Assembly: GCA_900469345.1 (NCBI GenBank)
Contig: UBWZ01000008.1
Span: forward strand, 372,001 to 436,000
Direction of reading: 5' to 3'
DNA: 64,000 nt
From: Hyphomicrobiales bacterium
GTDB taxonomy: Bacteria; Pseudomonadota; Alphaproteobacteria; Rhizobiales; Rhizobiaceae
Position 1 is the first letter of the stretch; the number at the start of each line of letters is the position of its first letter. Below the pieces are notes generated by a model. It was not told where the DNA came from. It did not search any database and saw nothing but the letters and a program-made list of their open reading frames with translations. The translations under genes were made by a program, and so were the position numbers. Positions 15,848-37,067 of the stretch are shown here, piece by piece.

Positions 15848-15924
15848 CGGAGTGTAGCGCAGTCTGGTAGCGCACCACGTTCGGGACGTGGGGGTCGAGT
15901 GTTCGAATCACTCCACTCCGACCA
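15848..15924 (+). tRNA. tRNA-Pro (anticodon CGG)
   Basis: A 77-nt cloverleaf. The acceptor stem CGGAGTG pairs with the 3' CACTCCG-type strand, the anticodon stem CCACG/CGTGG encloses loop TTCGGGA (anticodon CGG, reads CCG), and the T loop is TTCGAATC. The terminal A-CCA is genomically encoded. It has its own promoter and a rho-independent terminator. It marks the border between the core-like left part and the sulfur region that begins about 200 bases later. Confidence 0.96.
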
Positions 15925-15929
15925 GTTTG

Positions 15930-15958
15930 AAACCCCGCTTCGGCGGGGTTTTTCGTTT
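15930..15958 (+). terminator. Rho-independent terminator of tRNA-Pro
   Basis: Stem AAACCCCGC/GCGGGGTTT with a TTCG tetraloop, followed by a T-rich tract (TTTTTCGTTT). It starts six bases after the tRNA. Confidence 0.92.
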
Positions 15959-16118: not shown

Positions 16119-17150
16119 CTAGTTGGACTGCTTTGCGTCGACTTCCTTGTAGGCTGCGTCCAGGTAGCTGCTGTCGATCCATTTGTCGTAATCGACAGAG
16201 CCCTTAAGCAGTTTGGCATCGGCCATGAACTGCTCCTCGCTTTTCAGCGAAGCAAGCGCTTCCGGGGTGACCTTCGGATCCTGGTAGAAGACGTTATCAC
16301 GATAGGTCTTGCGAACCGACTTTTCGGAGGACTTGGTTTCGTCAACGAAGATCTTGATCGTCTCGTCCGGATGGGCGTCCGCCCAGCGGGCGGTCTCGAT
16401 GTCGACCTTCAGCAGGCGCCTGACGAGGTCGGGATATTTCCGGACGAACTCGCCGTTTGCCGAGACGAGAAACGGAGCCGACCATTCCGGGTGGGAGGAG
16501 GCATCGAGGATGACCCGCGCCTGGCCTGTTTCGACCAGCTTGGCAGCGACATCGCCGCTTTCGACGACAGCATCGACGTCACCGCGCACCAGGGCCGGCC
16601 CCGAGGCGTCGAAGGCAAGGTTGAGGGATTCAACGTCGGCAAGCATCAGTCCGACGGATTTCAGCGCCTTGGCGAAGGTCGAGTGACGAACGGTGCCAGT
16701 CAGATAGGCGACCTTCTTGCCCTTGAGATCGTCGATCGACTTGATCGGGGAGTCGGTCTTGACGATGATGGCGGAGCCGTTTTCCTTCACGTAGCTTGAG
16801 AGACCGATCGCCTTGACGTCCGCGCCGGCTGCGGCCACGCGCAGAGCCGGGTTGTTACCGGTGTAGATGAATTCGACTGCGCCCGTTGCCAGGGCGGTTG
16901 TCGCTTCCGAGCCGCCATTGGTGAAGGCGATGAATTCGACCTTGATGCCGTCTTTTTCGAATTCCTTGGCAAGCGAACCGCTATGACGCTGAAGGATGAA
17001 CTTGAGGTGGCCGGGTGCCGTGCTGCCGATGCGGATGATGTCCGGCTTGTCGGCAGCCAACGCAGGCGCGACGGCTGCCCCGCCGAGTGCAAGGGCGGCG
17101 AAAGCACTCAAAAGCGTTCGGCGCAGGATGGTCGGGTAGGACTGGGTCAT
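16119..17150 (-). CDS. Sulfonate-type ABC transporter substrate-binding protein
   Basis: A 343-residue periplasmic binding protein of the SsuA/TauA (NMT1-like) family. The signal peptide has paired Arg (LRRTLLSAF) and ALAAD cleavage, so Tat export is possible. Diagnostic parts are IRIGSTAPGHLKFILQ, GVAVEF-type loop text ALATGAVEFIYTGNNPAL and DDLKGKKVAYLTGTV. It is the last gene of a six-gene operon running 21512 to 16119, with 28 bases to the permease. An organic sulfonate or sulfate ester is the likely ligand by family and context. Confidence 0.85.
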   Translation of the reverse strand: MTQSYPTILRRTLLSAFAALALGGAAVAPALAADKPDIIRIGSTAPGHLKFILQRHSGSLAKEFEKDGIKVEFIAFTNGGSEATTALATGAVEFIYTGNNPALRVAAAGADVKAIGLSSYVKENGSAIIVKTDSPIKSIDDLKGKKVAYLTGTVRHSTFAKALKSVGLMLADVESLNLAFDASGPALVRGDVDAVVESGDVAAKLVETGQARVILDASSHPEWSAPFLVSANGEFVRKYPDLVRRLLKVDIETARWADAHPDETIKIFVDETKSSEKSVRKTYRDNVFYQDPKVTPEALASLKSEEQFMADAKLLKGSVDYDKWIDSSYLDAAYKEVDAKQSN

Positions 17151-17178: not shown

Positions 17179-18039
17179 TTAACTGTGGGAGATCTCGGAA
17201 TTGCCCTTCCAGGCGGTGGCCCAGCGCTCGAACCAGACGAGCAGATAGTTCACGAGCAGGCCGATCGCGGTCATGGTGATGATGCCGGCATACATATCCG
17301 CTGTTTCCATCATCAGTTGCGACTGCTGTATGAGAAAGCCGAGGCCGGATTTGGCGGCGAGCATTTCGGCGCCAATGACCGCAAAGATCGAGGACTTGAC
17401 GGCAAGCCGCATGCCCGAAACGATGAATGGGATGCTGGCCGGAAGGATGACCTTGCGGAACATGTCGAGGTCGGACGTGCCCATCGAACGGGCGGCCTTG
17501 AGAAGCAGCGGATCGACGGATTTGACGCCCGATATGGTGTTGATCAGCAGGAAGAAGATCGACGAATAGAAGCAGATGGCAACCTTGGATGCCTCGCCGA
17601 TGCCAAGCAGCAGGACGAAGACCGGCAGCAGCGCGAATTGCGAGGTGTTGCGCAGGGTCTGGACCAGCAAGTCCGAAACCTTCTCAAAAGCGGAATAGCG
17701 ACCCATCAGGAAGCCGAGCGGCACGGCGACGACCACAGCCAGAAGAAAGCCGATCGCTGCTCGTTGAAGACTGATGCCGATATTGGCCGAGAGCGTTCCG
17801 TCGAGAAGCATGGCGAACCAGGCAACGCAGACTTCGCTGAGCGGCGGGAAGAAGATGCGGTTCAGCCAGCCGAGCCGCGGTGCGATCTCCCAGAGGCCAA
17901 AGAACACGACGAGTAGCGGCAGGCCCGCGGTCAAGGCCCCGAATTCGAGGCGCCGCCTGCGTGCAGGCTTTGCCGTTTGTTTCTGCCGGTAGGGAGAAAG
18001 CTCCGCGCCGAGAATGGTTTTGTCGGTGGCATAGGCCAT
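17179..18039 (-). CDS. Sulfonate-type ABC transporter permease
   Basis: A 286-residue BPD-type inner-membrane permease of the SsuC/TauC family, with about six helices and the cytoplasmic EAA loop around KAARSMGTSDLDMFRKVILPASIPFIVSG. It partners the ATPase (15 bases upstream) and the binding protein (downstream). Confidence 0.9.
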   Translation of the reverse strand: MAYATDKTILGAELSPYRQKQTAKPARRRRLEFGALTAGLPLLVVFFGLWEIAPRLGWLNRIFFPPLSEVCVAWFAMLLDGTLSANIGISLQRAAIGFLLAVVVAVPLGFLMGRYSAFEKVSDLLVQTLRNTSQFALLPVFVLLLGIGEASKVAICFYSSIFFLLINTISGVKSVDPLLLKAARSMGTSDLDMFRKVILPASIPFIVSGMRLAVKSSIFAVIGAEMLAAKSGLGFLIQQSQLMMETADMYAGIITMTAIGLLVNYLLVWFERWATAWKGNSEISHS

Positions 18040-18054
18040 GGCGGTTCTCCGATT

Positions 18055-18891
18055 TCAGTGGCTGTAGGCCGGCGCAAGCGCCCAGTCCTTCTGTGCCTTG
18101 TTCACTTCGTCGCGCAGCGCCTCCCATACCCGGCCGCGATGGGCGTTGAATTCGGTGCTGGCGCGGATATCGCCGTCGCGCGGGCGCGGCAGGTCGATGT
18201 CGAGGATTTCCTTGACCGTCCCCGGCCGCGCGGTCATCACCACAATGCGGTCTGCGAGGTAGATCGCCTCGTCGATCGAGTGGGTGACGAAGACGACGGT
18301 CGTTTTGATCTTCTCCCAGATGCGCAGGAGTTCGGCCTGCAGGATTTCGCGCGTTTGCGCGTCAAGGGCTGCGAAGGGCTCGTCCATCAACAGGACCTCG
18401 GGGTCCGTCGCCAGCGCCCTGGCAATTGCAACGCGCTGCTGCATGCCGCCCGAGAGCTGGTTGGGAAACCGGTCCTCGAAGCCCGAAAGGCCGAACAGGG
18501 ACAGGAAATAGCGCGCCTTCTCGCGACGTTCGGCACTGCCGACGCCGCGCACCTCCAGTGCATATTCGACATTGGCGAGTGCGGTGCGCCACGGGAACAG
18601 CGCATACTGCTGGAAGACGTAACCGGTCTTGGCATCCGGCCTGACGATGCGTTTGCCGTCTATGCTGATGGATCCACCAGAAGCCTCGACAAGGCCGCCG
18701 ATGATGTCCAGCAGGACGGACTTGCCGCTGCCGCTCGGCCCGACCAGCGTGATGAACTCACCTTTGCGGATGGCAAGATCGACGCCGTTGAGGACGGTGA
18801 CCCTATCGGAGGGGCGGCCGTCGATCAGTACGGACTGGCCGGGCTTCAACTGGAAGGTTTTCTGGACATCGGTGACGGTGATGCGATCCAT
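18055..18891 (-). CDS. Sulfonate-type ABC transporter ATPase
   Basis: A 278-residue ABC ATPase of the SsuB/TauB/NrtD type. Walker A is GPSGSGKS, the Q-loop is in FQQYALFPWRTA, the signature is LSGGMQQRV, Walker B is VLLMDEPFAALD and the H-loop is FVTHSIDEA. The start is the ATG at 18891, since the longer frame adds a non-homologous Arg-rich leader. It lies 14 bases from the ferredoxin gene, which ties the transporter to the redox pair. Confidence 0.92.
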   Translation of the reverse strand: MDRITVTDVQKTFQLKPGQSVLIDGRPSDRVTVLNGVDLAIRKGEFITLVGPSGSGKSVLLDIIGGLVEASGGSISIDGKRIVRPDAKTGYVFQQYALFPWRTALANVEYALEVRGVGSAERREKARYFLSLFGLSGFEDRFPNQLSGGMQQRVAIARALATDPEVLLMDEPFAALDAQTREILQAELLRIWEKIKTTVVFVTHSIDEAIYLADRIVVMTARPGTVKEILDIDLPRPRDGDIRASTEFNAHRGRVWEALRDEVNKAQKDWALAPAYSH

Positions 18892-18905
18892 GGAATGCTC
18901 CAATC

Positions 18906-19232
18906 TCAAACTTGAGCGACGCGGATGCGGTGGGTGGGGTCGAGTTCGGAGCCGCCGGGCTTGCCGCGTTTCCACCCGAGCGCGCGCGAATAGCTGCCAA
19001 AAAGACCGCGCTCTTCCACGTCGCTTTCGGTGATGGCAAGCGGTCCGTCTGCACGCTCGGCAACATAAAGCGCGTCGGTCGGGCAGTAGATTTCACACAG
19101 AAAACAGGTCTGGCAGTCGTCCTGTCGAGCGATGACGGGAACGCCACCGGTCGCATCGAAGACATTGGCCGGGCACACCTTCACGCAGATATTGCACTCC
19201 ACGCAGCGGCTTTCGGAGACGACCTCTATCAC
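18906..19232 (-). CDS. Two-[4Fe-4S] ferredoxin paired with flavoprotein
   Basis: A 108-residue ferredoxin with two complete C-X2-C-X2-C-X3-C-P motifs, Cys10/13/16/20 and Cys40/43/46/50, so two [4Fe-4S] clusters are expected. A 55-residue tail after the clusters is longer than in simple bacterial ferredoxins and could wrap around a partner, as the AprB tail does on AprA. Its ATG overlaps the flavoprotein stop (ATGA), indicating coupled synthesis of a complex. It probably carries electrons to or from the FAD subunit. Confidence 0.88.
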   Translation of the reverse strand: MIEVVSESRCVECNICVKVCPANVFDATGGVPVIARQDDCQTCFLCEIYCPTDALYVAERADGPLAITESDVEERGLFGSYSRALGWKRGKPGGSELDPTHRIRVAQV

Positions 19233-20866
19233 GATGCGACCTCCCGCTGGCCTTGCTCTGCCGAGGAGGCCACAATGTCATCGACGCCGCGCAGCGTGAT
19301 GGAATGCGCAAGAGCCGGATCGCTCGTTTTGAAATCGCTGCGGCGATGCATGCCGCGGCTTTCCGTACGGGCAAGGGCAGCGACAATCGACCAGCGACCT
19401 GACGCGGCGATCGCCGCTGCTTCTCGCGCTTTCAGCCTGGTAAGGGCGGTGCCCTCGCCGGACAGATGGTTTTTGACGTCGGCCCAGAGGCTGTCGATCT
19501 TGTCGAAGCTTGCCTGGAGGCGGCCGCCCTCGCGAAAGTAATTCTTTTCAAGAGGGATGACTTCGGCGCGCACGCTGTCGATCACATCCCGGGGCGTCAG
19601 CGCGCCCTTCGCCAAAGCTGCGGGGCGCAGACCCGCCTGGCCGAGCGGGCGGGAACTTGTGCAGAAGGCCGTGTCGCCGCGGCGCCTGGCATAGGCGGCG
19701 GCACCCTGGCCGGACCACCAGCCGCTGGCGATTGCCCATGAGGAATTGGGCCCTCCGCCACCGGATGTGCCACCTACCAGCGGTTCGCGGCTCGAAGCGT
19801 CTCCGGCGACATAAAGGGCCGGCACATCGGTGCCGCAATCGGATGTGGCGATGCGGATGCCGCCGGTGCCGCGCACCGTGCCCTCCGCCCGGAAGGTGAC
19901 GCGAAACATCTCTGCAAAGGGATCGACCGGCGCGCGATCATACGGCACGAAACAGTTCGGCTGGCCGCGGCGAAGCCAATCCTGAAGGGCCGGTTCGGCC
20001 TGATCGAGCACCGCGTAGACGGGCGCCTCGATCATTGCCCTGGCGATGTCCTTCTCCCGTTCGCCGATGCCGTTCTGCAGAGGCCTGCCGTCGGCGTCGA
20101 GAATGGGCGTACCGTCTTCCCGGTAGAATGAGGCCCACCGGAAGGGGAGACCCTTGTTGAGCGAGGAGCCGTAAGGTGCAAGCGTGTATTTCCCGGTGAA
20201 TTCCATGCCGGAGAGGCTGGCGCCCGCTTCGGCGGCCATCAGATGGCCGTCGCCGGTCAGGGCGGCAGCCCCCAGGATGCGTTCGTGGAAGGCGCAGCCG
20301 CCTGTCGCCAGCACCACGGCGCCGGCATCGACCCGCCAGTCGCGGTCGCGCTGACGATCAACGCCGGCAGCCCCGGTGACGGCCTCGCCATCGAAGTAGA
20401 ATTCGACGGCAGGGTGATGATCAAGCACGGTAACGCCGGCCTTCAGCACCCGCCGGCGCATGAAGGCCATGTAGTCGGGGCCCCTGAGATTGGCGATGTA
20501 AAGCCGGCCGTCTTCGTCGTCGGGGAAGGGGTAGCCCCATTCCGCAAGCTTCAAAAGGTTCTCATAGGCCTGGTCGACGGTCCGCAGCATCCAGCGCTGG
20601 TCGGCAAGATTGCCGGTGCGCTGCCAGCGGCGCTCGACGATATTGGTGCGATTGTCGCCCGGCGGAACCAGCCAGGTGCCGGTGTTTGAGGGCGCGGTGG
20701 CGCCGCTGGTGCCAAGGTAGCCCTTGTCGGCCAGGATGACGCGAGCGCCATTCTGCGCGGCCGACAGAGCTGCCCAGGCACCGGCCGGCCCGCCCCCGAT
20801 GACGAGCACGTCTGTCTGCAGATGCAACGAACTCTTGTCCGCCAGTTCTTTACGGTTCAGCCCCAT
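19229..20866 (-). CDS. FAD-dependent oxidoreductase, AprA/FrdA-like
   Basis: A 545-residue flavoprotein of the succinate dehydrogenase/fumarate reductase/APS reductase flavoprotein superfamily. The Rossmann FAD motif is VLVIGGGPAGAWAA (about 20-33), followed by GTSGATAPSNTGTW. The second FAD segment is ALYVAGDASSREPLVGGTSGGGGPNSS (about 380-405). A helical C-terminal part follows. It is shorter than AprA (about 640 residues). With the coupled ferredoxin it resembles AprBA, but it lies in a sulfonate-import operon rather than with sulfate-reduction genes. Its reaction is unknown; organosulfur oxidation or reduction is inferred. Confidence 0.82.
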   Translation of the reverse strand: MGLNRKELADKSSLHLQTDVLVIGGGPAGAWAALSAAQNGARVILADKGYLGTSGATAPSNTGTWLVPPGDNRTNIVERRWQRTGNLADQRWMLRTVDQAYENLLKLAEWGYPFPDDEDGRLYIANLRGPDYMAFMRRRVLKAGVTVLDHHPAVEFYFDGEAVTGAAGVDRQRDRDWRVDAGAVVLATGGCAFHERILGAAALTGDGHLMAAEAGASLSGMEFTGKYTLAPYGSSLNKGLPFRWASFYREDGTPILDADGRPLQNGIGEREKDIARAMIEAPVYAVLDQAEPALQDWLRRGQPNCFVPYDRAPVDPFAEMFRVTFRAEGTVRGTGGIRIATSDCGTDVPALYVAGDASSREPLVGGTSGGGGPNSSWAIASGWWSGQGAAAYARRRGDTAFCTSSRPLGQAGLRPAALAKGALTPRDVIDSVRAEVIPLEKNYFREGGRLQASFDKIDSLWADVKNHLSGEGTALTRLKAREAAAIAASGRWSIVAALARTESRGMHRRSDFKTSDPALAHSITLRGVDDIVASSAEQGQREVAS

Positions 20867-20924
20867 CGGAAATTCTCTCGGTCTCGGAAGGAAGGACGCA
20901 GCCTGTCGCCTGCCGCCTGAAACA

Positions 20925-21512
20925 TCATGCGGCGTTCGAGAACCACGAGGGCTCGTTGCCCGTCGTCCACTTGATATTGCAGCCGATCGATGGCGTCTGC
21001 TCGGCCGACGGCGCGGCGCCCGCCAGGACGGCATCGACCGCCGTGCGCAGATCCTTGCCGGTGACCGGCTTGCCGTTTCCGGGACGCGCATCGTCGAACT
21101 GTCCGTGATAGGCCAGCCTTCCGGCGCCATCGAAGAGGAACAGATCCGGTGTGCATGCCGCGCCATAGGCTTTGGCGACTGCCTGCGTTTCATCCTTCAG
21201 GTAGGGGAAGGGGTAGCCAACGGCCTCAACTTCCCGACCGATCGCAGCGAGGCTTTCTTCCGGATGCGCTTCGGAATCATTGCTGTTGATGGCAACGACC
21301 TGCAAGCCACGAGCTTCATATTCCCGGGCCAGAGCAGCGAACTGCTCGCGGATCAGGATGACAAAGGGACAGCGGTTGGAAAGGAATGCCACCAGCAGTG
21401 CCGGCGCTCCCTTGAAATCGGAAAGCTTGCGGGACACACCCTCAGAATCGGGAAGAGCAAAATCGGCAGCCTGCGTGCCCAGTTCGATTGCGTTGGAGGC
21501 GGTCTTTGGCAT
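20925..21512 (-). CDS. AhpC/TSA-family thioredoxin-fold protein
   Basis: A 195-residue peroxiredoxin-like protein of the AhpC/TSA group. The fold pattern is AADFALPDSEGVSRKLSDFKG then LVAFLSNRCPF, where a single Cys replaces the CxxC of thioredoxins. Other Cys lie in GAACTPDLFLFD and near the C-terminus (SIGCNIKW). The pattern fits one-Cys or atypical two-Cys peroxide or persulfide handling. It is the first gene of the operon that continues with the flavoprotein and ferredoxin. The palindrome at 21546-21566 lies 34 bases upstream of its start. Confidence 0.82.
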   Translation of the reverse strand: MPKTASNAIELGTQAADFALPDSEGVSRKLSDFKGAPALLVAFLSNRCPFVILIREQFAALAREYEARGLQVVAINSNDSEAHPEESLAAIGREVEAVGYPFPYLKDETQAVAKAYGAACTPDLFLFDGAGRLAYHGQFDDARPGNGKPVTGKDLRTAVDAVLAGAAPSAEQTPSIGCNIKWTTGNEPSWFSNAA

Positions 21513-21545: not shown

Positions 21546-21566
21546 ATTCTATCTATACTATAGATT
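21546..21566. promoter_or_regulatory. Palindromic operator candidate ahead of the flavoprotein/sulfonate operon
   Basis: ATTCTAT-N7-ATAGATT, an inverted repeat with one mismatch. It has the same half-site and the same 7-base spacing as the perfect palindrome at 36969-36991. It lies between the divergently oriented operon start (21512, minus) and the TauC-like remnant (plus), where an operator should be. Confidence 0.6.
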
Positions 21567-21654
21567 TTAAAGACCATACCCGTCTGCCGGTACGGGGTTT
21601 TGGAAAAAAGCATACCGGCAAAGGCCGTGTTGTTGGAAATTTCTCTGAGGCATC

Positions 21655-22083: not shown

Positions 22084-22965
22084 TCAGCCTTCCAGAAATT
22101 CGACCACGACGCCGCTGGCATCCTCTCGGCCGACGGCAATGCCACCGCGCGGTGTCGCGACGGGAGAAACGCCGTTCTCCGAAAGGACGCGGCGGGTGGT
22201 CTCGAGATCCGTGACCCTGACCTGAAGTGCGAAAAAGCCGTTCGCCGGGGCCGTCCGGACATCGAGGCCTGGATATATGTCTGGAATGGAGCCGGGATCG
22301 TAGACAAAGAGGGGCGCCGAATTGGTCCCGGTCTCGACGCGAAAGCCGCCGTCCGCCTGACTGACCGCGCCGTCCGCATAGAAACGCGCGTAGGTTTTCG
22401 CCTTGGCAAGCGGATCATCGCTGATGCCGATGATGCCGCCCAGACCGATCGAGCCGTTGGCATGCGACTGCAGCTCCGGTCTCCAGACCATGTCCGGCGT
22501 CTCGTGCTGGCAAAGAAAGAAATGACCGAAGGGGACCTCGCTTTCCTCGAACCTCAGTGTGCGGAAGCTGGCGATCCCCGCGGCGCCGCCGGGCAAGGGG
22601 AGGGGCCGGGAAAAGGCACTGACGTCGCCCGTCCTGATCTGAAGCTCGCTCAGAGCTTCCTTTGCGGCACTTGCGTCCCGCGTTCTGTTGGCGATCGCCT
22701 GCAGGCCCTCGCCGACCGTTGCCAGCGTGCGGCGCTGCTGCGCGTTAAGGTCTGTATCGCTAACGACACCGAGAAGTTCGAGATAATCATCCTTGAAGAT
22801 GATGGTGTGGTTCGCCGTGCCTTTCCGCGGGCTGTGCAGCCCGCGCGGAGACAGAGTAAACCCAAGCCGCCGGTAAAGCGCTGCGCTGGCCTCCAGATCG
22901 CGAACCAGCAGGTAAGTGTGGTCTATGCCGAGCACCGGATGAGTCGTGGGTACGGTCCTGGTCAT
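22084..22965 (-). CDS. VOC/glyoxalase-family protein
   Basis: A 293-residue protein of the vicinal oxygen chelate superfamily (glyoxalase_3-like). It opens with GIDHTYLLVRDLEASAALYRRLGF, contains HTIIFKDDYLELLGV, and has a second VOC-like repeat ending in VVVEFLEG. The metal-binding set is probably His, Glu and another His or Glu, as in lactoylglutathione lyase-like proteins. The start is the ATG at 22965, overlapping the preceding stop by one base (TGATG). It is the last gene of the operon running from 30408; the role is unknown. Confidence 0.8.
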   Translation of the reverse strand: MTRTVPTTHPVLGIDHTYLLVRDLEASAALYRRLGFTLSPRGLHSPRKGTANHTIIFKDDYLELLGVVSDTDLNAQQRRTLATVGEGLQAIANRTRDASAAKEALSELQIRTGDVSAFSRPLPLPGGAAGIASFRTLRFEESEVPFGHFFLCQHETPDMVWRPELQSHANGSIGLGGIIGISDDPLAKAKTYARFYADGAVSQADGGFRVETGTNSAPLFVYDPGSIPDIYPGLDVRTAPANGFFALQVRVTDLETTRRVLSENGVSPVATPRGGIAVGREDASGVVVEFLEG

Positions 22966-23567
22966 CAAGGAGCCGGAGTCGGTTCGCCGATCGAAAGCAT
23001 CAGCCGGTTTGCCCAGTTGAAGAACGCCGCGCCATGGATGACGTCGGAAATCTCCTCGTCCGAAAGGCCGGCATTGCGCAGCGCCTTGACATGGTCGGGT
23101 CCGAACGCCGGTGGCGTGGCGCTGAGGGCAACCGAGGCGGCGACGATGGCGTTCCAGCGTTCGCCCAGATCCGCGGAAACGCCTTCATCCAGCAGCTTCT
23201 GGACGTCGTCCTCGCGCTTGGAATACTGCGAGGCAAAGCGCGAATGGACCGAGGCACACAGGATGCAGCCGTTGAGCCGCGAAGCGGCCGTGGCGGCCAG
23301 TTCCCGTTCGGCGCGCGGCAGGCCATCCTTGGTGTTGTAGAAGATGTCATTGTCGGTCTTGGTGCGGGCTTCGAGAATGTCGGGGTCGCGGACAAGCAGT
23401 GCAAAGTAGGACGATTGGGCGCGAGCCTTGTCGACCAGAGCCTCGTAATGCCGTTCGGTGAACTCGGCTTCGGACAAGGGCTTCAGCCAGGCCGTCCAGC
23501 CGATCTTCTCCTGCGTGAATGCAACCGGCGGATTGGTGACCGCGGTCTCGATGATTGTATCGGTCAT
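22965..23567 (-). CDS. Alkylhydroperoxidase-like CMD-domain protein (Avi_7169-type)
   Basis: A 200-residue AhpD-fold protein. The active-site pattern NGCILCASVHSRFAS has CxxC followed by His, as needed for peroxidase/thiol-disulfide chemistry. To my recollection it corresponds to the alkylhydroperoxidase-domain family named after Avi_7169 (TIGR04030). It lies 14 bases after the second CMD gene and is coupled to the VOC gene. It probably removes peroxide made by the luciferase-like monooxygenase or relays thiol electrons. Confidence 0.82.
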   Translation of the reverse strand: MTDTIIETAVTNPPVAFTQEKIGWTAWLKPLSEAEFTERHYEALVDKARAQSSYFALLVRDPDILEARTKTDNDIFYNTKDGLPRAERELAATAASRLNGCILCASVHSRFASQYSKREDDVQKLLDEGVSADLGERWNAIVAASVALSATPPAFGPDHVKALRNAGLSDEEISDVIHGAAFFNWANRLMLSIGEPTPAP

Positions 23568-23581
23568 GTCGGATGTCCTGT

Positions 23582-24178
23582 TTAAGCTGCAGCCAGAACC
23601 TTGAGGCCGGCAACGACGCGGATCTGGAAGGCAAGGAAGGAAACGAGTTGCGACAGGGTCACGACGCCGGTGGTGCTCCAGCCCGACGACAGGAGCTGCT
23701 GCAGCGCGGCGGGGTTGGCGTCCCTTGGATGGAAGACCAGAAGATGCGCGTGACGGAGTGCTGCCGAAAGCCGGTCGCCCAGCACGGCCCGGTCCGCCTC
23801 CGGGATGACAAGGGTCGGTCCCTCTTGGTTTTCCAGGGTCAGCGGACCGTCCGGATATTGGCCGTAGGGGCCTTTCGTAGCGGCAAGCTCTCCAAGCGCC
23901 TCGACCGTCGATCGAAGCGCCGAACCGTTTTCCACCCCATCCAACTTATCCGCATAGAAACCGGCAATAGTCTGGTCATCGTGAACTGCCGCGACAAAGG
24001 CCGCCACGGCAAACCGTTCGGCAAGAGTGACTTGGCTGGTGTCGCCGGGTGCAAACAGCGCGTCCCAGCTTTTCTGCGCATTTTCCCTGGTCACGGGCCG
24101 TCTTGATCGAAGGCCATCGGCGGTCGAGCCCGGTACGGTGCCCAGAAGATGGTCGATAACGTCTTTGGTGTCAGGCAT
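23582..24178 (-). CDS. CMD-domain protein (Avi_7170-type)
   Basis: A 198-residue AhpD-like protein in which the CxxC motif is absent; the corresponding region reads ALRHAHLLVFHPRDANPAAL. It is probably the divergent, non-redox partner of the next CMD protein and fits the Avi_7170 family (TIGR04029) from memory. The start is the ATG at 24178; the longer frame adds an unrelated leader. It lies 25 bases downstream of the monooxygenase gene. Confidence 0.78.
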   Translation of the reverse strand: MPDTKDVIDHLLGTVPGSTADGLRSRRPVTRENAQKSWDALFAPGDTSQVTLAERFAVAAFVAAVHDDQTIAGFYADKLDGVENGSALRSTVEALGELAATKGPYGQYPDGPLTLENQEGPTLVIPEADRAVLGDRLSAALRHAHLLVFHPRDANPAALQQLLSSGWSTTGVVTLSQLVSFLAFQIRVVAGLKVLAAA

Positions 24179-24203
24179 GGGTGTGTCTTTCGCTAAGCAA
24201 TCA

Positions 24204-25241
24204 CTATTGGGCGGCAACGAGGCGAGGCTGGGACGCGCGGTTCCAGCCAAGGGCCGGGGCGACTTCGGCGGCAATCAGCTCGATCGACCGAAGGATATCC
24301 GCATGCGGCGGATCGATTGAATGGACCTGGAACGTTATGTCGGTGACCCGAGCCAGAGCGCTGTCCCTTTTGAGCGAGGCGATGACGTCGTCCGGCGTTC
24401 CGACATGGCTGTCCAGCGCCTTGATGAGATCTTCGAGGCGGTTGCCCTGGATGCGATGTCCGGCGGCTGCGAAGCGGTCGGCCACGCGGCGAAGACCGGT
24501 TTCGGCCAGCGCAAGCGCCCGGGCGCGGTCGTCCGCGACGAACAGGCTCCGCGAACCGAGGATGCGCGGTTGCCTTCCTTCCGGCAGACCCGAGAGATAG
24601 GCGTCGATGATCGGGTTCTGCAGATCGTCGAGCGTTGCATCCGGGCTTTCGGCCGGGCGTGGCTGGGTTCGCGACAACATCAGGCCGTCACCGCTGAGAC
24701 CTGCAAGCCGAGCGCCACCGACCGAGAACGTCGCAAGCCAGATCATGTCGAGCAAATGCGGCGCATTGGGATAGAGACGGTTGCCGCCGGGCAGGGCATG
24801 TCCGGCCCAGGCATCGCGAACGAGGCCCAAGTTGCGGGCATAGATTTCACCGCGGCTGTTGGCATCGATGCCGAAGGCCTCGAAGGATTCCTGGGTGCCG
24901 CCGGTGCCGAAACCGACGTCCAGCCGGCCACCGGACAGAAGGTCGAGCACGGCCGTGTCTTCCGCGACGCGCAAAGGATTTTCCATCGGAAGCGTGATGA
25001 CGCCGGTGCCGAGACGGATCTTCGATGTCCGGGCGGCCACATGCGCCAGGAACACGGTCGGGGAGGGAAGCCCGCCTTCCTCCGCATGAAAGTGGTGCTG
25101 GGCAATCCAGGCGCTGTCGAAGCCATTGTCCTCGGCATGAATGATCTGTTCGGCGGCCAGCCGGTAGCGTTCTCCGGGAGAGACGTCGTCGAGAAGCCGG
25201 GTGAAGAATCCGAGGCGTTTTGGAGGGATGCTGGCGGTCAT
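24204..25241 (-). CDS. Luciferase-like FMN-dependent monooxygenase (KPN_01858-type)
   Basis: A 345-residue LLM-class flavin enzyme. It has the N-terminal strand KRLGFFTRLL, the AWIAQHHFHAEEGGLPSP segment, LGTGVITLPMENPLRVAEDTAVLD and RLDVGFGTGG, typical of the bacterial luciferase barrel. Together with the neighbouring peptide-type transporter and two CMD proteins it matches the KPN_01858 family context (TIGR04027, from memory). It needs reduced FMN from a reductase not found nearby. Its ATG overlaps the ATPase stop (ATGA). Confidence 0.85.
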   Translation of the reverse strand: MTASIPPKRLGFFTRLLDDVSPGERYRLAAEQIIHAEDNGFDSAWIAQHHFHAEEGGLPSPTVFLAHVAARTSKIRLGTGVITLPMENPLRVAEDTAVLDLLSGGRLDVGFGTGGTQESFEAFGIDANSRGEIYARNLGLVRDAWAGHALPGGNRLYPNAPHLLDMIWLATFSVGGARLAGLSGDGLMLSRTQPRPAESPDATLDDLQNPIIDAYLSGLPEGRQPRILGSRSLFVADDRARALALAETGLRRVADRFAAAGHRIQGNRLEDLIKALDSHVGTPDDVIASLKRDSALARVTDITFQVHSIDPPHADILRSIELIAAEVAPALGWNRASQPRLVAAQ

Positions 25242-26893
25242 GACAAGGGTCCTGCTGCTGCTAGTGGCGGCCGATCGAACGCGGCGCGGGGAAACTTCCG
25301 CCCCGGGATGGCCTGAATGAGTTCGCGGGTGTAGGCGGTCGCTGCCGGGGAAAAGATCTCGTCGACCGTGCCGTAATCGACCTGCCGTCCATTGTGGAGA
25401 ACCGACACGGTGTCGGCGATCTGGCGGACGATGGCGAGGTCGTGCGAGACAAACACATAAGTGAGGCCGAGATCGCGCTGCAGTTCGGCCAGAAGCGTCA
25501 GGATCTGGGCCTGGACCGTGACGTCGAGGGCCGATACGGCTTCGTCGAGCACGACGACGTCAGGCTCCAGCACAAGTGCGCGGGCAATGGCGACACGCTG
25601 GCGCTGGCCCCCCGACAGAGCATGCGGCGATCGGGAGAGGAGCGCCGCGGGCAGACCGACGCGATCGATCATGGCACGCACCCGCGCCTGACGCTGATCG
25701 CGCGGAAGAGGGTCGAAGTTGAGAAGCGGTTCTTCCACGATCGCCTGAACGGTTTGTCGCGGATCGAGTGACCCCCACGGGTTTTGGTAGACCAGTTGCA
25801 CCTTGCGTCGAAACTGCCGCAGCTCTTCGGAACGGAGGCTGCGCACATCCAGATCTCCGACACGGATTTCACCGCCGGTCGGCTTCTGGAAACCGGCGAT
25901 CGCCCGGATGGTCGTGGTCTTGCCCGATCCGGATTCGCCGACCACGGCATGGGTCGTGCCGCGCGCCACGGTGAAGGAGACATCGTCGACCGCGCGAAAG
26001 GTCTTGCCCGATTGCAGCGGGAAATCCTGCACCAGGTTGCGAACTGTCACGGCGATCGGACGGCCGGGCTCGATCGGTGGCCTTGGCCGGGCCGTCGCAA
26101 GCGATGGCGCATCGGACAGCAGCTTGCGGGTATAGGCGTTTTGCGGTGCGGCCAGCACATCCTCAGTCCGGCCCTGCTCCTGAATGCGGCCACCCTGCAG
26201 CACGATGATCCGGTCGGAGCGGTCGGCTGCGACGGCAAGATCGTGCGTGACCAGCAAGACCGACGTGCCATATTCGCGGCGCAGATCGTTGATCAGGTCG
26301 AGGATGCGCCGCTGTACCGTCACATCGAGTGCAGAGGTCGGCTCGTCGGCAATGATCAGTGCGGGACGCAAGGCGATCGCGATGGCGATCAGAACGCGCT
26401 GCTTCATGCCGCCCGACAGTTCGTGCGGATATTGGCGTATCCGCAGAGCCGGCTCTGACAGGCCGACACTGGTGAGCAGTTCGATGACCTGGCGATCGGC
26501 CTCGCGACGGTCGAGCCGCCCATGGATCTCGAGGGTCTCCCGCACCTGCGCCCCGATGGTCATGACCGGGTCGAGCGAATTTCCCGGATCTTGCGGCACG
26601 AGGCTCACGACCGCGCCGCGGATGTTGCGAAGGCGCCGCGAGCTCCAGCGGCTGATATCCTCACCGTTGAGGTGGATCGTGCCGGAATCGATCCGGCCGT
26701 TTTCGGCGAGAAGCCCGATGACGGCCTGCGCCGTCGAGGTCTTGCCCGAACCGCTTTCGCCGACCAGGGCCACGACTTCGCCGGGCTCGACCGTGAACGA
26801 GACGCCGTGCACCACGGCTGCACGCTCATCCCCCTGGCGATAGGAGAGTACGAGATCGCGGACGTCGAGGACGGGAGCTTGAACAGGGCTCAT
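25238..26893 (-). CDS. Dipeptide-type ABC transporter, fused DppD-DppF ATPase
   Basis: A 551-residue protein with two ABC ATPase domains in one chain. The first has Walker A GESGSGKTSTAQ and signature LSGGMKQRV; the second has GESGSGKTTTIRA and LSGGQRQRV. Both have Walker B Asp-Glu. Fused DppD/F-like ATPases are common in Rhizobiales (GsiA/YejF type). It powers import through the two permeases upstream in the operon, overlapping both neighbours by ATGA. The start is the ATG at 26893. Confidence 0.93.
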   Translation of the reverse strand: MSPVQAPVLDVRDLVLSYRQGDERAAVVHGVSFTVEPGEVVALVGESGSGKTSTAQAVIGLLAENGRIDSGTIHLNGEDISRWSSRRLRNIRGAVVSLVPQDPGNSLDPVMTIGAQVRETLEIHGRLDRREADRQVIELLTSVGLSEPALRIRQYPHELSGGMKQRVLIAIAIALRPALIIADEPTSALDVTVQRRILDLINDLRREYGTSVLLVTHDLAVAADRSDRIIVLQGGRIQEQGRTEDVLAAPQNAYTRKLLSDAPSLATARPRPPIEPGRPIAVTVRNLVQDFPLQSGKTFRAVDDVSFTVARGTTHAVVGESGSGKTTTIRAIAGFQKPTGGEIRVGDLDVRSLRSEELRQFRRKVQLVYQNPWGSLDPRQTVQAIVEEPLLNFDPLPRDQRQARVRAMIDRVGLPAALLSRSPHALSGGQRQRVAIARALVLEPDVVVLDEAVSALDVTVQAQILTLLAELQRDLGLTYVFVSHDLAIVRQIADTVSVLHNGRQVDYGTVDEIFSPAATAYTRELIQAIPGRKFPRAAFDRPPLAAAGPLS

Positions 26894-27771
26894 GGGGAGC
26901 TCCTTCCGATTGATCTGCTGATGCGGTTGGCCGCAAGCACGACGGTGACGACGACGAGCCCTGGCACGGTCGTCAACCACCAGGCCGTTGCGAGGTAGTT
27001 GCGGCCCTCGGCAATCAGCAGGCCCCATTCCGGCGTCGGCGGCGGTGCTCCGTAGCCGAGAAAGCCGAGCGTCGAGATCTGCAGGATGGCCCAGCCGAAC
27101 TGCACGGCGGTGTAGGCGATGACCGAGGTCAGGGAATTGGGAAGGATATGCCGCCAGAGAACGCGTGCGAACGTTCCGCCGCTGCCGAAGGCGGCTTCCA
27201 CGAATTCTGCGTTGCGGACGCGGACCACTTCGGAGCGCATCAGGCGTGCGAAGCCGGCAATGGCCGTGGCACCGACCGCGATCGCGGCATGGAGCGTGCC
27301 GAAGCCGAGCAGGATGATGATGCTGAGGGAGAGAAGCAAGGTCGGGATGGCGAGGAGAACGTCGACAAGCCGCATCAGCACGGTGTCCACGCGACCCCGC
27401 GCGGAGCCCGCGACCAGGCCGAGCGCGCTGCCGACGATGAGGCCGACACCCACGGCGGCAATCGCGCCGGACAACGAATGAACGGCGCCGTAGACGAGCC
27501 GCGCGAAGAGATCGCGACCGAGCGAGTCGGTTCCGAGGAGATGTGCCGCCGAGGGCGCCTTGAGCTGACCGCCCGGCGTCCCCTGCAAAGGATCATAGGC
27601 GGTGAAAAGCCACGGCATCGCGGCCCAAAGGACCACGGTCGTAAGCACCAGCCAGGCAAGGACGAGACCCAGCGGCAGCTTTCGCAGGGCTGCAAGGACA
27701 CGAAGCCAGCCGGCCGTTTCGCCCTGTTTAGTGGTGTCGGTGACGTGGAGAAAGCTGTCTGTGGTGGTCAT
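26890..27771 (-). CDS. Dipeptide-type ABC transporter permease (DppC-like)
   Basis: A 293-residue inner-membrane permease of the DppC/OppC group. The N-terminal cytoplasmic part precedes helix 1 (about 30-55). The periplasmic segment HLLGTDSLGRDLFARLVYG is diagnostic, and the EAA loop lies near EAAFGSGGTFARVLWRHILPN. The start is the ATG at 27771, overlapping the DppB stop. Confidence 0.92.
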   Translation of the reverse strand: MTTTDSFLHVTDTTKQGETAGWLRVLAALRKLPLGLVLAWLVLTTVVLWAAMPWLFTAYDPLQGTPGGQLKAPSAAHLLGTDSLGRDLFARLVYGAVHSLSGAIAAVGVGLIVGSALGLVAGSARGRVDTVLMRLVDVLLAIPTLLLSLSIIILLGFGTLHAAIAVGATAIAGFARLMRSEVVRVRNAEFVEAAFGSGGTFARVLWRHILPNSLTSVIAYTAVQFGWAILQISTLGFLGYGAPPPTPEWGLLIAEGRNYLATAWWLTTVPGLVVVTVVLAANRISRSIGRSSP

Positions 27772-28712
27772 CGTTCTACACCAGCTCGATTTCTGAGGCG
27801 GGGGTCGAGGATCGGATAGGCCAGATCGACCGCCAGGTTGATGGCCACAAAGGCGGCAGCCGAAATGACGACGATTGCCTGCAGGACAGACAGATCCTGA
27901 TTGCCGACGGCCTTTTCCGTCAGTCCGCCGATGCCGTTCAGCCCGAACACGGTCTCGGTCACGACGGCGCCGGCGACCAGTTCGCCGAACAGGACCCCTG
28001 CGATGGTGAGCGCCGGCAGGATCGCGTTGCGGGCCACGTGCTTCCACAGAAGCCGAGCCTCGCTGGCGCCCTTGGCGCGTGCGACCGCGATGAAGGGACG
28101 CGTGCGGATCTCGTCGATGTTGCGGATGAGGATCTGCGCCAAGGGTGCGGAGATCGGAACAGCCAGCGTCGCGACCGGCAGCACAAGGCTTTCCCAGGGA
28201 CCGGGATTGATCACCGAGACGAGGCGAAGGCGGAAGGAGAAGATCTGGATCAGCATGATCGCGAGCCAGAACACGGGAACGGAGATGAGCAGCGACGGCA
28301 GCGATTGGAGGAGGTTCCGCAGCCAGGCGAAGGGAGCCATGGACGACAGGAAGGCGATCGACACCGCCAGCAGCACCGCCACGGCAAAGCCCAGACCCGC
28401 AAGCCTCAGCGTCGGCGGCATGTTTGTTGCAAGCTGCGCCGAGACGGGCACGCCGGCCTGCAGCGAGTAGCCGAAATCGCCTTTCAGGAAATTGAAGAGC
28501 GTGCGTCCGTACTGGACGAAGATGTTGGAATCGACCGCATAGGCAGCGCGGATCTCGTTGATCTGGTCGGCACTCAACCCGAAATCGGGGCTGAGGAACT
28601 TGATCAGCACCGCGTCGCCCGGCAGCGCCTGCAGCAGAACAAAGGACAGGGTGAAGGCGGCCCAGAGGACGAGAAGCGCCTGGCCGATCCGTCCGAACAC
28701 ATAGAGCGTCAT
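27768..28712 (-). CDS. Dipeptide-type ABC transporter permease (DppB-like)
   Basis: A 314-residue permease of the DppB/OppB group, with the N-terminal signature MTLYVFGRIGQALLVLW and LQALPGDAV, five to six helices, and the EAA-like loop ARAKGASEARLLWKHVARNAILP. The family hallmark near the C-terminus, ETVFGLNGIGGL, is present. It lies 67 bases downstream of the binding-protein gene. Confidence 0.93.
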   Translation of the reverse strand: MTLYVFGRIGQALLVLWAAFTLSFVLLQALPGDAVLIKFLSPDFGLSADQINEIRAAYAVDSNIFVQYGRTLFNFLKGDFGYSLQAGVPVSAQLATNMPPTLRLAGLGFAVAVLLAVSIAFLSSMAPFAWLRNLLQSLPSLLISVPVFWLAIMLIQIFSFRLRLVSVINPGPWESLVLPVATLAVPISAPLAQILIRNIDEIRTRPFIAVARAKGASEARLLWKHVARNAILPALTIAGVLFGELVAGAVVTETVFGLNGIGGLTEKAVGNQDLSVLQAIVVISAAAFVAINLAVDLAYPILDPRLRNRAGVER

Positions 28713-28779
28713 CGCAACTCTCCGAAAAAAGGGTGGACGGTAGCCCTTGGACCACCGTCCCTTCGGCTTGGGAGGCCTG

Positions 28780-30408
28780 TCACTTGTCCAGCCAGACGCT
28801 GTAGAAGGAGGGGCGGCCGACGGATTCGAAGGCGACGCCCTTCACGTAGGGCGCTCCTGCGAAGGCCTGCGGCTCTTCGAAGATCGGCACCGAGTAGGCC
28901 TGGTCGAGGAGATAGGTCTGAGCGTCGGCCACAGCTTTCAGGCGCTTTTCCCGATCAGGCTGCGAGGCGATCTCTTCGAGGATGGAATTCAGCTTGTCGT
29001 CGGCGAAGGTCTTGACCTTGTCGCTAACGCCGCCCTTCTGGACGAGCGCGTTGCGGTTGGTCGGGTAGAACTGGCTCTTGACGACATCCGGATCGGCACG
29101 GCCGACCATGGCTACGGCGACCGGTGTCTTGAGCGGGTCGAGTTCGTCGACGACCTTGCTGCCGGCATCGCCCGCCAGCACGTTCAGCTTCACGCCCAGC
29201 TTTGCCCATTGCTGGCCAATCAGCTGCAGTACGGCGCGACTCTGGGGTTGCGGCAGGGATTCGTAGGACGTCAGGACGAGCTTCTGGCCGTCCTTTTCGC
29301 GAATGCCGTCGGCACCGGGCTTGAACCCGGCTTCATCGAGCAGGGCCTCTGCCTTTTCCGGATCATATTGCAGCTTGTCGACCAGCGGCACATAGCCGAT
29401 CGCCGTCGACGCGATGACCGATGTCGCCTTGGGGTAGTTCTTGGAGAAGAGGGTGGATATGATCTCGTCGCGGTTGACGGCCAGCGAGAGCGCCTTGCGA
29501 ACCTTGAGGTCCGACACCAGCGGGTTGTCCGGGCGGAAGACGATCGAATTGTTCACGCCGCGCGTGCTCGGTGCAAAGATGGTGAAGCCCTGGGCTTCCA
29601 CCTGCGCTTCGTCATAGGCCTGGATCTGGCGGATAAAATCCGCTTGGCCTGCCAGCAGCGCGCCGATGCGGACGCTGTCTTCCGAGGTGATGATGTAGCT
29701 GATCTCGTCGAGATAGGCGCGGCCCTGGTGATCGAGCTTGGCCGGACCCCAGTTGTAGTCGCTGCGCGCCTGGAGGCTGAGCGATTTGCCGATCGTTTCC
29801 GCCTTCACCACGAAGGGGCCCGAACCGATGATCTTGGTCGCGTCCCCGAGTTGCTCGAACGGAAGCGCGAGCGTCGAGAGGGACACGATGCCGGAGCCGA
29901 TCACCGAGGTGCCTTGCAGGAAGCCTGGAGACGGCTTCTTGAAGTAGAACTTGACGGTCAGCGGGTCGACGACTTCGCTGCGATCGTAGTTGTTGACGAC
30001 CTCGGACACGGGCAGTTTCAGTGCCTTGTTGCCGAGGCCGAAGGTGTCGAAATTCTTGGCCACGGCGGCCGCATCCAGCGGCGTGCCATCAGAAAAGGTG
30101 ACGCCGGGGCGCAGCTTGAAGGTGTATTCCGTCGCGTTGTCGTTCACCTGCCAGGACAGGGCGAGCCAGGGTTCGATCTCCAGCGTCTTCGGGTTCTGGT
30201 AGGTCAGCTTGTCGGTGATCTGGTTCAGGATGCCGCCGTTGGGATAAAAGCCACCGGCGGGCGGATAGAGATTGGTATGGGCCTGTTGTTCCAGGTAGGT
30301 GAACTTGCCGCCTTTCACGGGCGTATCTGCGGCAAGGCTCGCAGTGGCAAAGGTGGCTGATGCGAGCAGCCCGAGGCTGAGGGTGAAGAGTTTGGGAAAG
30401 CGCAGCAT
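28780..30408 (-). CDS. Peptide/nickel-type ABC substrate-binding protein (KPN_01854-type)
   Basis: A 542-residue cluster C binding protein (SBP_bac_5) with a signal peptide (SLAAD cleavage). Typical parts are LALSWQVNDNATEYTFKLRPGVTFSDGTPLDA and the C-terminal PIFEEPQAFAGAPYVKGV. It is the first gene of the eight-gene operon that contains a luciferase-like monooxygenase and two CMD proteins, consistent with the KPN_01854 family (TIGR04028, from memory). The ligand is unknown; the sulfur context points to an organosulfur compound rather than a plain peptide. Confidence 0.88.
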   Translation of the reverse strand: MLRFPKLFTLSLGLLASATFATASLAADTPVKGGKFTYLEQQAHTNLYPPAGGFYPNGGILNQITDKLTYQNPKTLEIEPWLALSWQVNDNATEYTFKLRPGVTFSDGTPLDAAAVAKNFDTFGLGNKALKLPVSEVVNNYDRSEVVDPLTVKFYFKKPSPGFLQGTSVIGSGIVSLSTLALPFEQLGDATKIIGSGPFVVKAETIGKSLSLQARSDYNWGPAKLDHQGRAYLDEISYIITSEDSVRIGALLAGQADFIRQIQAYDEAQVEAQGFTIFAPSTRGVNNSIVFRPDNPLVSDLKVRKALSLAVNRDEIISTLFSKNYPKATSVIASTAIGYVPLVDKLQYDPEKAEALLDEAGFKPGADGIREKDGQKLVLTSYESLPQPQSRAVLQLIGQQWAKLGVKLNVLAGDAGSKVVDELDPLKTPVAVAMVGRADPDVVKSQFYPTNRNALVQKGGVSDKVKTFADDKLNSILEEIASQPDREKRLKAVADAQTYLLDQAYSVPIFEEPQAFAGAPYVKGVAFESVGRPSFYSVWLDK

Positions 30409-35048: not shown

Positions 35049-35113
35049 GCGGCGTTAGCATGTTCTCACTCGGCTGCGGGACCGCGGCGGGACGCATCAT
35101 AAAGGAATATTGC

Positions 35114-36283
35114 ATGGCCACTGGCGACCAGGCACTCGATTTTCTCTGGTTCATCCCTTCCTCCGGAGACGGCGCCTATCTCGGCTCGGACGATCTCAAC
35201 CGGCCATCCGACCCGGGTTATTTTCGGGAGATCGCGCAGGCTGTGGATCGCCTTGGCTATTCGGGCGTGCTGATCCCGACCGGGGCGGCCTGCGAGGAGT
35301 CCTTCATTCTCGCCGCTGACCTTGCAGCGCGAACGGAAAATCTCAAGTTCCTGGTGGCGATCCGGCCGGGTGTCGCGTCTCCGGCCTATTACGCGCGACT
35401 GACCTCGACACTCGATCGTGTCACCAACGGGCGCCTGCTTCTCAATATCGTGGTGGGCGGCAGTGCTCAGGAATTGGCGGGCGACGGCATCTTCCTTCCG
35501 CATGACGAGCGATACCTGCATGCGGGCGAGTTCTTCGAAGTGTTCAACAAACTCATCGAGACCGGCAGCGCCCATCTCGACGGGAAATACATCCAGGCCC
35601 ATCATGCGGAGCTTGGTCTGCCGCCTGTGCAGGACCCGCGACCGCCGATCTACTTCGGCGGCTCCTCGGATGCCGCAATCGATTTTTCGGTCGGCATCGT
35701 CGACAAGTACCTGACCTGGGGCGAGCCTCCGGCACAGGTTGCCGAGAAGATCGAAAAGGTTCGCAAGGCGGCCTCCGCAGAGGGCCGTGAAGTCACCTTC
35801 GGGATCCGGCTGCACTTTATCGTCCGCGAGACGGATGAGGAGGCATGGGAAGATGCCGAACGCCTGATCTCCAAGCTGTCTGACGAGACCATTGCCGCCG
35901 CCCAGGAGGTTTTCGCCAAGAACTCCGACTCTGTGGGGCAGGCCCGGATGGTGGCGCTCCACAACGGTCGCCGCGACAAGCTCGAAGTCTCGCCAAACCT
36001 GTGGGCCGGCGTCGGCTTGGTGCGCTCCGGTGCCGGAACGGCCCTTGTCGGATCGCCGAAGACTGTTGCTGCCCGGCTGCGGGAATATCAGGCGCTCGGG
36101 ATCGATACCGTGATCGCGTCGGGCTATCCGCACCTTGAGGAAGCCTACCGCGTCTCGGAACTGCTGTTCCCGGAACTTGGGCTGGCCGGGCCCCGCAATC
36201 AGATCCGCGCGTCGTTCGGCAAGCGCCAGGTCTTCGGCGGCGGCGGTCACGGTGGCAATGTGAAAGTCGCGTCTGGCTCCTGA
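35114..36283 (+). CDS. SsuD-like FMNH2-dependent alkanesulfonate monooxygenase
   Basis: A 389-residue LLM-class flavin monooxygenase close to SsuD. It has [48 protein letters not shown] (FMN-binding barrel part), [20 protein letters not shown] and [22 protein letters not shown]. The start is the ATG at 35114 behind AAAGGA; the longer frame lacks homology. SsuD cleaves C1-C14 alkanesulfonates to aldehyde and sulfite using FMNH2 from a separate reductase. The importer genes immediately upstream support this role. Confidence 0.9.
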
Positions 36284-36991: not shown

Positions 36992-37067
36992 TAGATGTGT
37001 CGTCTCCGACGGAGCGCTGTGGATTGCCTAGATTCAAGACGACGGAAAGCTCGCCAAGAGGTCTTCG

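Follow-up and report, generated by a model that had tools for sequence, protein, structure and literature searches.

The stretch of DNA analysed here (the window: 64,000 nucleotides, positions 372,001 to 436,000 of contig UBWZ01000008.1 from a Hyphomicrobiales bacterium, assembly GCA_900469345.1) contains a six-gene operon on its minus strand. The operon encodes a peroxiredoxin-like protein, a flavoprotein binding flavin adenine dinucleotide (FAD), a ferredoxin with two [4Fe-4S] motifs and the three components of an ATP-binding cassette (ABC) importer (Table 1). A preliminary description of this DNA had reported a peroxiredoxin-like gene, a flavoprotein of 545 residues and an eight-cysteine ferredoxin in front of a sulfonate-type importer, and all three genes were located there. 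Full-length homology and the directly adjoining gene for an eight-cysteine ferredoxin relate the pair to AsfA/AsfB, which has been characterised genetically, and it is very probable that the pair of the window serves organosulfonate use.

Table 1. Features of the operon and its surroundings (positions in the window)
Feature	Position	Strand	Remark
Peroxiredoxin/thioredoxin-fold protein (AhpC-TSA/Redoxin), 195 aa	20925-21512	minus	operon gene 1
AsfA-like FAD flavoprotein, 545 aa, fumarate reductase/AprA fold	19229-20866	minus	operon gene 2
AsfB-like ferredoxin, 108 aa, two [4Fe-4S] motifs	18906-19232	minus	operon gene 3; GTG start
ABC importer ATPase, SsuB/TauB type	18055-18897	minus	operon gene 4
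ABC importer permease, SsuC/TauC type	17179-18039	minus	operon gene 5
Periplasmic binding protein, SsuA family	16119-17150	minus	operon gene 6; TIGR01728 above curated cut-off
22-base AT-rich motif holding a perfect 15-base palindrome	21551-21572	minus	38 nt before first gene
Cluster: luciferase-like monooxygenase, AhpD-type, CMD and glyoxalase-like proteins, peptide/nickel-type importer	22084-30408	minus	adjoins operon
Luciferase-like monooxygenase	24204-25241
FAD-NAD(P)-binding protein (PF13454)	30542-31981		between two importer clusters
Second SsuA-C-B set	32.1-34.7 kb
SsuD alkanesulfonate monooxygenase	35060-36283	plus	TIGR03565 above cut-off
Serine hydrolase (PF06821)	37068-37694
Rrf2-family regulator	37792-38256		next after serine hydrolase gene
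SfnB	38270-39511
SsuD-like monooxygenase	39648-40715
DmoA/NtaA-type monooxygenase	44975-46312
tRNA-Pro(CGG)	15848-15924		just 3' of binding-protein gene
Terminator-like hairpin	15929-15952		just 3' of binding-protein gene
terC RNA (RF03067) match	58763-58821	minus	56.4 bits; gathering score 39.9

The six genes are separated by gaps of 61, -1, 11, 18 and 31 bases (taken from alignment ends, with stop codons uncounted). Translational coupling of the flavoprotein and ferredoxin genes had been proposed from an ATGA overlap; a four-base overlap of stop and start is indeed present, although it reads GTGA. All eight cluster cysteines of the ferredoxin (positions 10, 13, 16, 20, 40, 43, 46 and 50) were invariant in 21 of 21 aligned sequences. 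The binding protein scored 268.4 bits against the NCBIfam SsuA_fam model, for which the cut-off is 163.5, and the operon ATPase and permease scored below the equivalog cut-offs of their models. By family membership the importer is an SsuABC-type sulfonate importer, with a sulfonate as its predicted ligand.

AsfA and AsfB are known from the asfRABC cluster of Pseudomonas putida S-313 and Cupriavidus metallidurans CH34, where a flavoprotein gene is likewise followed by that of a two-cluster ferredoxin, with sulfonate-type transport genes nearby and in a context of sulfur scavenging. Transposon mutants of P. putida S-313 in asfA did not grow on aromatic sulfonates but still used aliphatic ones (PMC4267179). 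On replicon 2 of C. metallidurans both proteins of the window matched at one place only, the flavoprotein with 46% identity over 532 columns and the ferredoxin with 48% over 104. The asfRAB genes have been described on this replicon, with Rmet_4334/5 as the reductase-ferredoxin AsfA/AsfB (PMC2864759); as the record searched is unannotated and no LysR gene was found among the flanking genes scanned, our match is equated with Rmet_4334/5 by its uniqueness rather than by locus tag. The window differs from the asfRABC cluster in its peroxiredoxin-like first gene, its built-in three-gene importer and the lack of a LysR regulator among the scanned neighbours: no LysR match was found among the six operon proteins, four upstream genes and three downstream frames (two minus, one plus). 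Since a LysR gene was not found among the scanned flanking genes at the C. metallidurans place either, asfR is not required for the protein family.

Five of the 80 named loci surveyed gave no single clean stretch and were left out before alignment. A quick maximum-likelihood tree was calculated from 103 AsfA-like rows and two outgroups. The window flavoprotein fell in its own clade of 11 rows (Shimodaira-Hasegawa-like approximate likelihood ratio test, SH-aLRT, 100), whose named members are alphaproteobacteria and which includes two rows from the window's order. C. metallidurans, Variovorax and four of five Rhodococcus rows formed a separate 51-row group (SH-aLRT 98), with the remaining Rhodococcus row outside it. 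Three Pseudomonas rows belonged to an 18-row group that lies together with the window clade within a 41-row set (SH-aLRT 92), so that the P. putida AsfA could be nearer to the window protein than the Cupriavidus AsfA is. The outgroup branches are longer than 7 and the root of the tree is therefore unsure. Because the window protein stands outside the Cupriavidus/Variovorax/Rhodococcus group, we call it an AsfA-like relative, and neither AsfA nor an ortholog of the proteins in that group. No NCBIfam model provided a curated name for it or for four AsfA-like relatives; the matches listed, 25 of 54 in the case of the window protein, were all far below cut-off. Homologs were detected by tblastn in 63 of 72,556 plasmid records, from Rhizobium to Nostoc, Pseudonocardia and Paenibacillus, and no match was found in 50,697 phage records. 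In two distant loci, grouped in the tree, the ferredoxin gene lies upstream of the flavoprotein gene and not downstream. Eight loci carry two flavoprotein genes each, several of them from different parts of the tree, and in Paenibacillus cellulositrophicus a binding protein gene is flanked by two flavoprotein-ferredoxin pairs.

An AlphaFold2 model of the flavoprotein was built from 82 aligned AsfA-like sequences, of which 81 come from contigs of named genomes and one from the window (mean predicted local distance difference test score 92.8, predicted template modelling score 0.93). VIA-align superposed it on E. coli FrdA (1kf6; Z 44.8, root-mean-square deviation (rmsd) 3.2, 511 aligned), aspartate oxidase (1knp; Z 43.4, rmsd 3.3, 484 aligned), the 3'-phosphoadenosine 5'-phosphosulfate (PAPS) reductase of M. 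thermolithotrophicus (8a8o; Z 42.2, rmsd 3.8, 497 aligned) and the adenosine 5'-phosphosulfate (APS) reductase of A. fulgidus (2fja; Z 35.6, rmsd 3.9, 511 aligned); AprA 1jnr was a further match. An FAD_binding_2 domain and a fumarate-reductase C-terminal domain are present together with the fold, and a C-terminal RxESRG motif is common to SdhA and the AsfA-like flavoprotein. As modelled, the flavoprotein is a full-length member of the FrdA/AprA superfamily; the near full-length alignment therefore indicates that the domains housing the substrate site in FrdA, NadB, PAPS reductase and AprA are present in it. Its Pfam matches are FAD-binding types over the Rossmann part, and no separate NAD(P)H domain was seen among them.

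The 82 sequences were aligned with one AprA and one SdhA-like protein. In A. fulgidus AprA the APS-site residues are, we assume, Asn 74, Glu 141, Arg 265 and His 398; a search of the literature for these numbers found none. The APS-coordinating residues have been called invariable in the dissimilatory APS reductase family (PMC10322725). In a reference set of 12 AprA proteins found by tblastn (49.7-100% identity to the reference, which is included), five positions were kept throughout, namely Asn (YAIN), Glu (HGESYK), Trp (WYAPW), Arg (VLTRFK) and His (GSHATC). Among the AsfA-like sequences the Asn position holds Trp in 72 and never Asn, the Glu position Pro in 78 and never Glu, and the His position Glu in 79 and Asp in three; the Trp and Arg positions fall in gaps in all 82. 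The preliminary description had considered an APS reductase unlikely, and this alignment bears it out, the APS-binding Asn, Arg, Glu and His being absent from every AsfA-like sequence. That the pair is a reduced dissimilatory-type APS or PAPS reductase (AprBA) would explain the common fold, the FAD and the separate ferredoxin-like subunit with two [4Fe-4S] clusters, as well as the structural matches to 8a8o and 1jnr/2fja. With the four APS-site residues kept in 12/12 AprA and 0/82 AsfA-like proteins, the segments of the substrate Arg and of WYAPW missing and the genes set beside an importer, its probability is practically nil. The AprB motif CWEC moreover aligns with CQTC in the ferredoxin (Gln in 20 of 21 rows), and the best hit of the AprA model in this genome, which is without AprA, has an E value of 7e-4 and falls on an SdhA-like protein. 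An identity as APS reductase was rejected for the loss of the AprA substrate residues in 82/82 sequences.

FrdA, SdhA and L-aspartate oxidase are closest in fold, and FrdA and NadB gave the best structural matches, as would be expected if the flavoprotein were a fumarate reductase, succinate dehydrogenase or aspartate oxidase. The residues of those enzymes, however, are exchanged. For E. coli FrdA we take the FAD-linking His to be 44, the substrate His 355 and the catalytic Glu 245. In the 82 AsfA-like sequences the FAD-linking His of FrdA/SdhA is Gly throughout, the catalytic Glu of FrdA is Lys (59) or Arg (23), the substrate His is Glu or Asp in all, and the substrate Arg of GANRLG is never Arg. 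The His at position 256 of the SdhA used is replaced by Tyr in 79; for the Arg of SRDVVSR, ten sequences have Arg as well, in a poorly aligned stretch. The partner is a small ferredoxin and not of the FrdB type, the genome has its own SdhA-like protein, and the NCBIfam matches listed (25 of 54) all lie far below cut-off. Such an identity is thus extremely improbable, and was rejected on the exchanged residues and the low model scores. The family has a residue set of its own: Arg137, Arg332, Arg360, Gly365 and Trp377 are invariant in 82/82 sequences and position 238 is basic in all. The four invariant Arg and Trp residues and basic position 238 are as expected of a shared active site handling anions, and not of a bare electron carrier.

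Of 119 homologous flavoprotein genes, 111 have a ferredoxin gene downstream of them, on the same strand and no more than 250 bases away. Among 11 close relatives (the rest of the clade, ten rows, plus Sinorhizobium meliloti Ak57) the order peroxiredoxin-flavoprotein-ferredoxin-SsuB-SsuC was found on one strand in all, the peroxiredoxin gene of the Brucella pituitosa locus being diverged or broken; SsuA is next in the nine loci that reach that far, and the other two end before it. Such conservation is more than chance would give. One locus outside the clade has flavoprotein, ferredoxin and SsuB without the peroxiredoxin in 4.6 kb. The sequence record of S. meliloti Ak57 is titled plasmid pSymB and is 3.72 Mb long, and a chromosome of 3.7 Mb has been described for the species (PMC5940162); the label may be wrong.

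The wider neighbourhoods were surveyed in the 80 named loci (up to 9.5 kb; blastp at 1e-9 against one reference set, losses at contig ends counting as misses). Components of ABC importers were detected in 58 loci and binding proteins in 49; luciferase-like monooxygenases (LLM) were present in 29, TauD/2-oxoglutarate types in 20 and SfnB/acyl-CoA-dehydrogenase types in 13. The window's peroxiredoxin family occurred in seven (in one case on the other strand and 35% alike), and a second peroxiredoxin family in eight. In 43 of the 80 loci, contig-end losses included, the survey detected no LLM, TauD-type or P450 gene close to the flavoprotein gene, and none of these oxygenases was found at threshold in eight of the ten clade relatives, whose loci are 17.8-19.6 kb long.

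The operon itself lies within an island of organosulfur genes of about 32 kb, and the link to an imported sulfur compound made in the preliminary description is supported by these sulfonate genes. The adjoining cluster matches the families TIGR04027/28/29/30 (hypothetical equivalogs) above their cut-offs; for the FAD-NAD(P)-binding protein no NCBIfam match was found at 1e-20. The SsuEADCB system resembles the operon in importer type, and SsuD with a second SsuA-C-B set is found in the same island; the operon differs from that system in that its six genes include neither SsuD nor SsuE. The tRNA-Pro gene and the terminator-like hairpin stand at one edge of the island, and the terC RNA match was noted further along the window.

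We propose that the operon is a sulfur-scavenging unit in which the flavin/Fe-S pair itself handles an organosulfonate. The SsuABC-type importer would bring in the substrate; electrons would flow by way of the two [4Fe-4S] clusters of the AsfB-like ferredoxin to the FAD bound by the AsfA-like flavoprotein. The latter would be the catalytic subunit, binding the sulfonate in a remodelled cleft of the fumarate reductase type and taking part in the release of sulfur, most likely as sulfite, and the peroxiredoxin-like protein may provide protection from peroxide that arises at the exposed reduced flavin, or act as a thiol partner. For this proposal with all of its steps we estimate a probability of about 0.5.

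Extending the view in the literature, the pair may instead be an electron-transfer chain that feeds an oxygenase distinct from it, either SsuD or a further enzyme dependent on reduced flavin mononucleotide (FMNH2) or on Fe. That oxygenase would cleave the C-S bond, the pair binding no sulfonate. This published view is a serious rival, if a less probable one. It is favoured by SsuD and several other LLM in the window, by the LLM and TauD types of the surveyed loci, and by the distribution of SsuD: among 297 genomes of the order, 12 carry the flavoprotein (in one case as a fragment at a contig end), and SsuD scored above cut-off in 11 of these against 45 of 285 non-carriers (Fisher p 4.6e-8, uncorrected for relatedness), where two draws of 297 genomes were taken as the same set, as the genome labels shown agree. 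The genome studied here has a second SsuD above cut-off elsewhere. The flavoprotein, though, combines the lack of a visible NAD(P)H domain with a whole substrate-type fold and an invariant charged set, and no LLM, TauD-type or P450 gene turned up near it in more than half of the loci surveyed, contig-end losses included. In a second set of 60 carrier genomes (from the 12 of the order and 50 of the 80 named loci), SsuD was above cut-off in 34, matched at 1e-60 in 52 and was absent at that threshold in eight; the eight include a genome that is 100% complete, the B. pituitosa genome, whose locus has the gene order of the clade, and four Bacillota. Genomes traced through loci came without a completeness figure. 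The link with SsuD is thus strong without being absolute, and strict dependence on SsuD is not supported.

Several points weigh against the proposed sulfonate-handling pair. The residue equivalences come from a sequence alignment at about 20% identity and not from superposed coordinates, and neighbours were identified solely by similarity to one reference set. The recognised named carriers are aerobes or facultative aerobes. In strain S-313 monooxygenation of arylsulfonates is reported to yield phenols, products not to be had from a purely reductive cleavage. An LLM gene less than 4 kb upstream of the operon and SsuD about 14 kb away, both outside the operon's transcription unit, were observed, SsuD being a possible partner enzyme; a partner role would account equally well for the co-occurrence of SsuD with the flavoprotein. 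In P. putida S-313 the use of arylsulfonates depends on both ssu and asf (PMC4267179, PMC10441942).

A bolder form of the proposal, which we consider unlikely, holds that AsfAB-type pairs are self-sufficient sulfonate-cleaving enzymes that release sulfite without an oxygenase. Low-potential electrons from the two [4Fe-4S] clusters would reduce the FAD, an N5-sulfur adduct would form as has been proposed for APS reductase, and the invariant Arg332, Glu/Asp328 and Lys/Arg238 would make up the active site. If this were true, the six-gene operon and the SsuD-free clusters of Bacillota would be complete systems by which aerobic bacteria desulfonate reductively.

The product of the operon's first gene matched AhpC-TSA with 73 bits and Redoxin with 65 bits, both above cut-off. 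Cys48 (in RCPF), Cys120 and Cys178 were found in 11 of 12 aligned sequences; Cys48 is a candidate peroxidatic cysteine and a peroxidase role is putative. The B. pituitosa protein is 36% alike, with the three cysteines missing from the aligned stretch. The best solved relatives are 3u5r, 2ywi and 2cvb, and 134 of 195 positions are identical to PDB chain 3u5r. For the corresponding protein of S. meliloti Ak57, encoded by the first gene of its operon, identity to 3u5r extends to 194 of 195 positions. The deposition of 3u5r names it an uncharacterized protein, and a solved structure therefore already exists for one protein of this operon type. LsfA, a 1-Cys peroxiredoxin of the Pseudomonas sulfate-starvation response, is likewise a peroxiredoxin-type gene tied to organosulfur uptake genes; it probably belongs to another subfamily. 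LsfA has been described as lying beside sulfonate genes, and a suggestion has been cited by which oxidative stress results from the reduced flavins that sulfonate use involves (PMC4199769). The two peroxiredoxin families near AsfA/AsfB-like pairs fit this suggestion.

In the 150 bases upstream of the first gene, a 22-base AT-rich motif is common to the window and ten relatives; it scored 25.4 bits (40 restarts) against 15.0-16.1 in 12 mononucleotide-shuffled sets (10 restarts each). When the window was scanned with a matrix from the ten relatives, whose sites had been chosen in a run including the window, its own site was the highest at 23.2; six Markov controls peaked at 9.4-16.3. The next sites are a pair at 36964-36996 (18.1 and 19.7) before the serine hydrolase gene. 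A site at 30478 (16.3) precedes the TIGR04028 binding protein; the controls reach the same value and it is therefore not beyond chance. It is a guess that these genes form a common sulfur regulon, perhaps controlled by the Rrf2 protein, which may regulate the sulfur island as well as its own expression. A scan for consensus promoters gave one promoter-like site, on the other strand, where shuffled sequences give 1.3.

A further point, against a plain sulfur role of the operon, comes from S. meliloti. The operon ending at SMc02344 is likely an ortholog, as suggested by gene number, by the importer genes standing last and by the PDB title of 3u5r. It has been described as a six-gene operon whose start is printed as smc0235, with a reporter fusion in smc02350 (PMC5940162). 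SMc02344-SMc02346 are named a putative glycine betaine/choline transporter (PMC8829014; PMC3596328) and showed some of the strongest induction of all genes under nitrogen stress, with Hfq control (PMC8829014); SMc02344 was also among Hfq-controlled proteins (PMC3484140). If the operon is an ortholog, either nitrogen status plays a part as well or the transporter carries a wrong name. The clade's substrate might then be a nitrogen compound, betaine-like or an aminosulfonate, with the operon serving nitrogen as much as sulfur supply; this agrees with the nitrogen-stress induction and with the match of the six genes. Orthology, however, derives from gene number and a PDB title and not from sequence, the transporter name looks like annotation rather than the outcome of an assay, and the window's binding protein is above the SsuA-family cut-off within an organosulfur island, which together make this reading quite improbable.

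The preliminary description had spoken of an uncharacterised flavin/Fe-S enzyme, which goes too far. Relatives of the pair are known genetically, and in this respect the genes and the family are ordinary; no biochemical study of the AsfA/AsfB proteins was found in the open literature searched. The window pair belongs to an alphaproteobacterial AsfA-like clade of rhizobia and their kin with the fixed order Prx-AsfA-AsfB-SsuB-SsuC-SsuA (Prx, peroxiredoxin). The exchanged yet conserved residue set and the SsuD-free carriers make it testable whether such pairs are an electron chain or a catalyst. Among the organic sulfur sources of soil, sulfonates are described as the most abundant (PMC4267179), and asfA is in use as a marker gene for sulfonate mobilisation; surveys that equate every AsfA-like sequence with a user of arylsulfonates may mix lineages.

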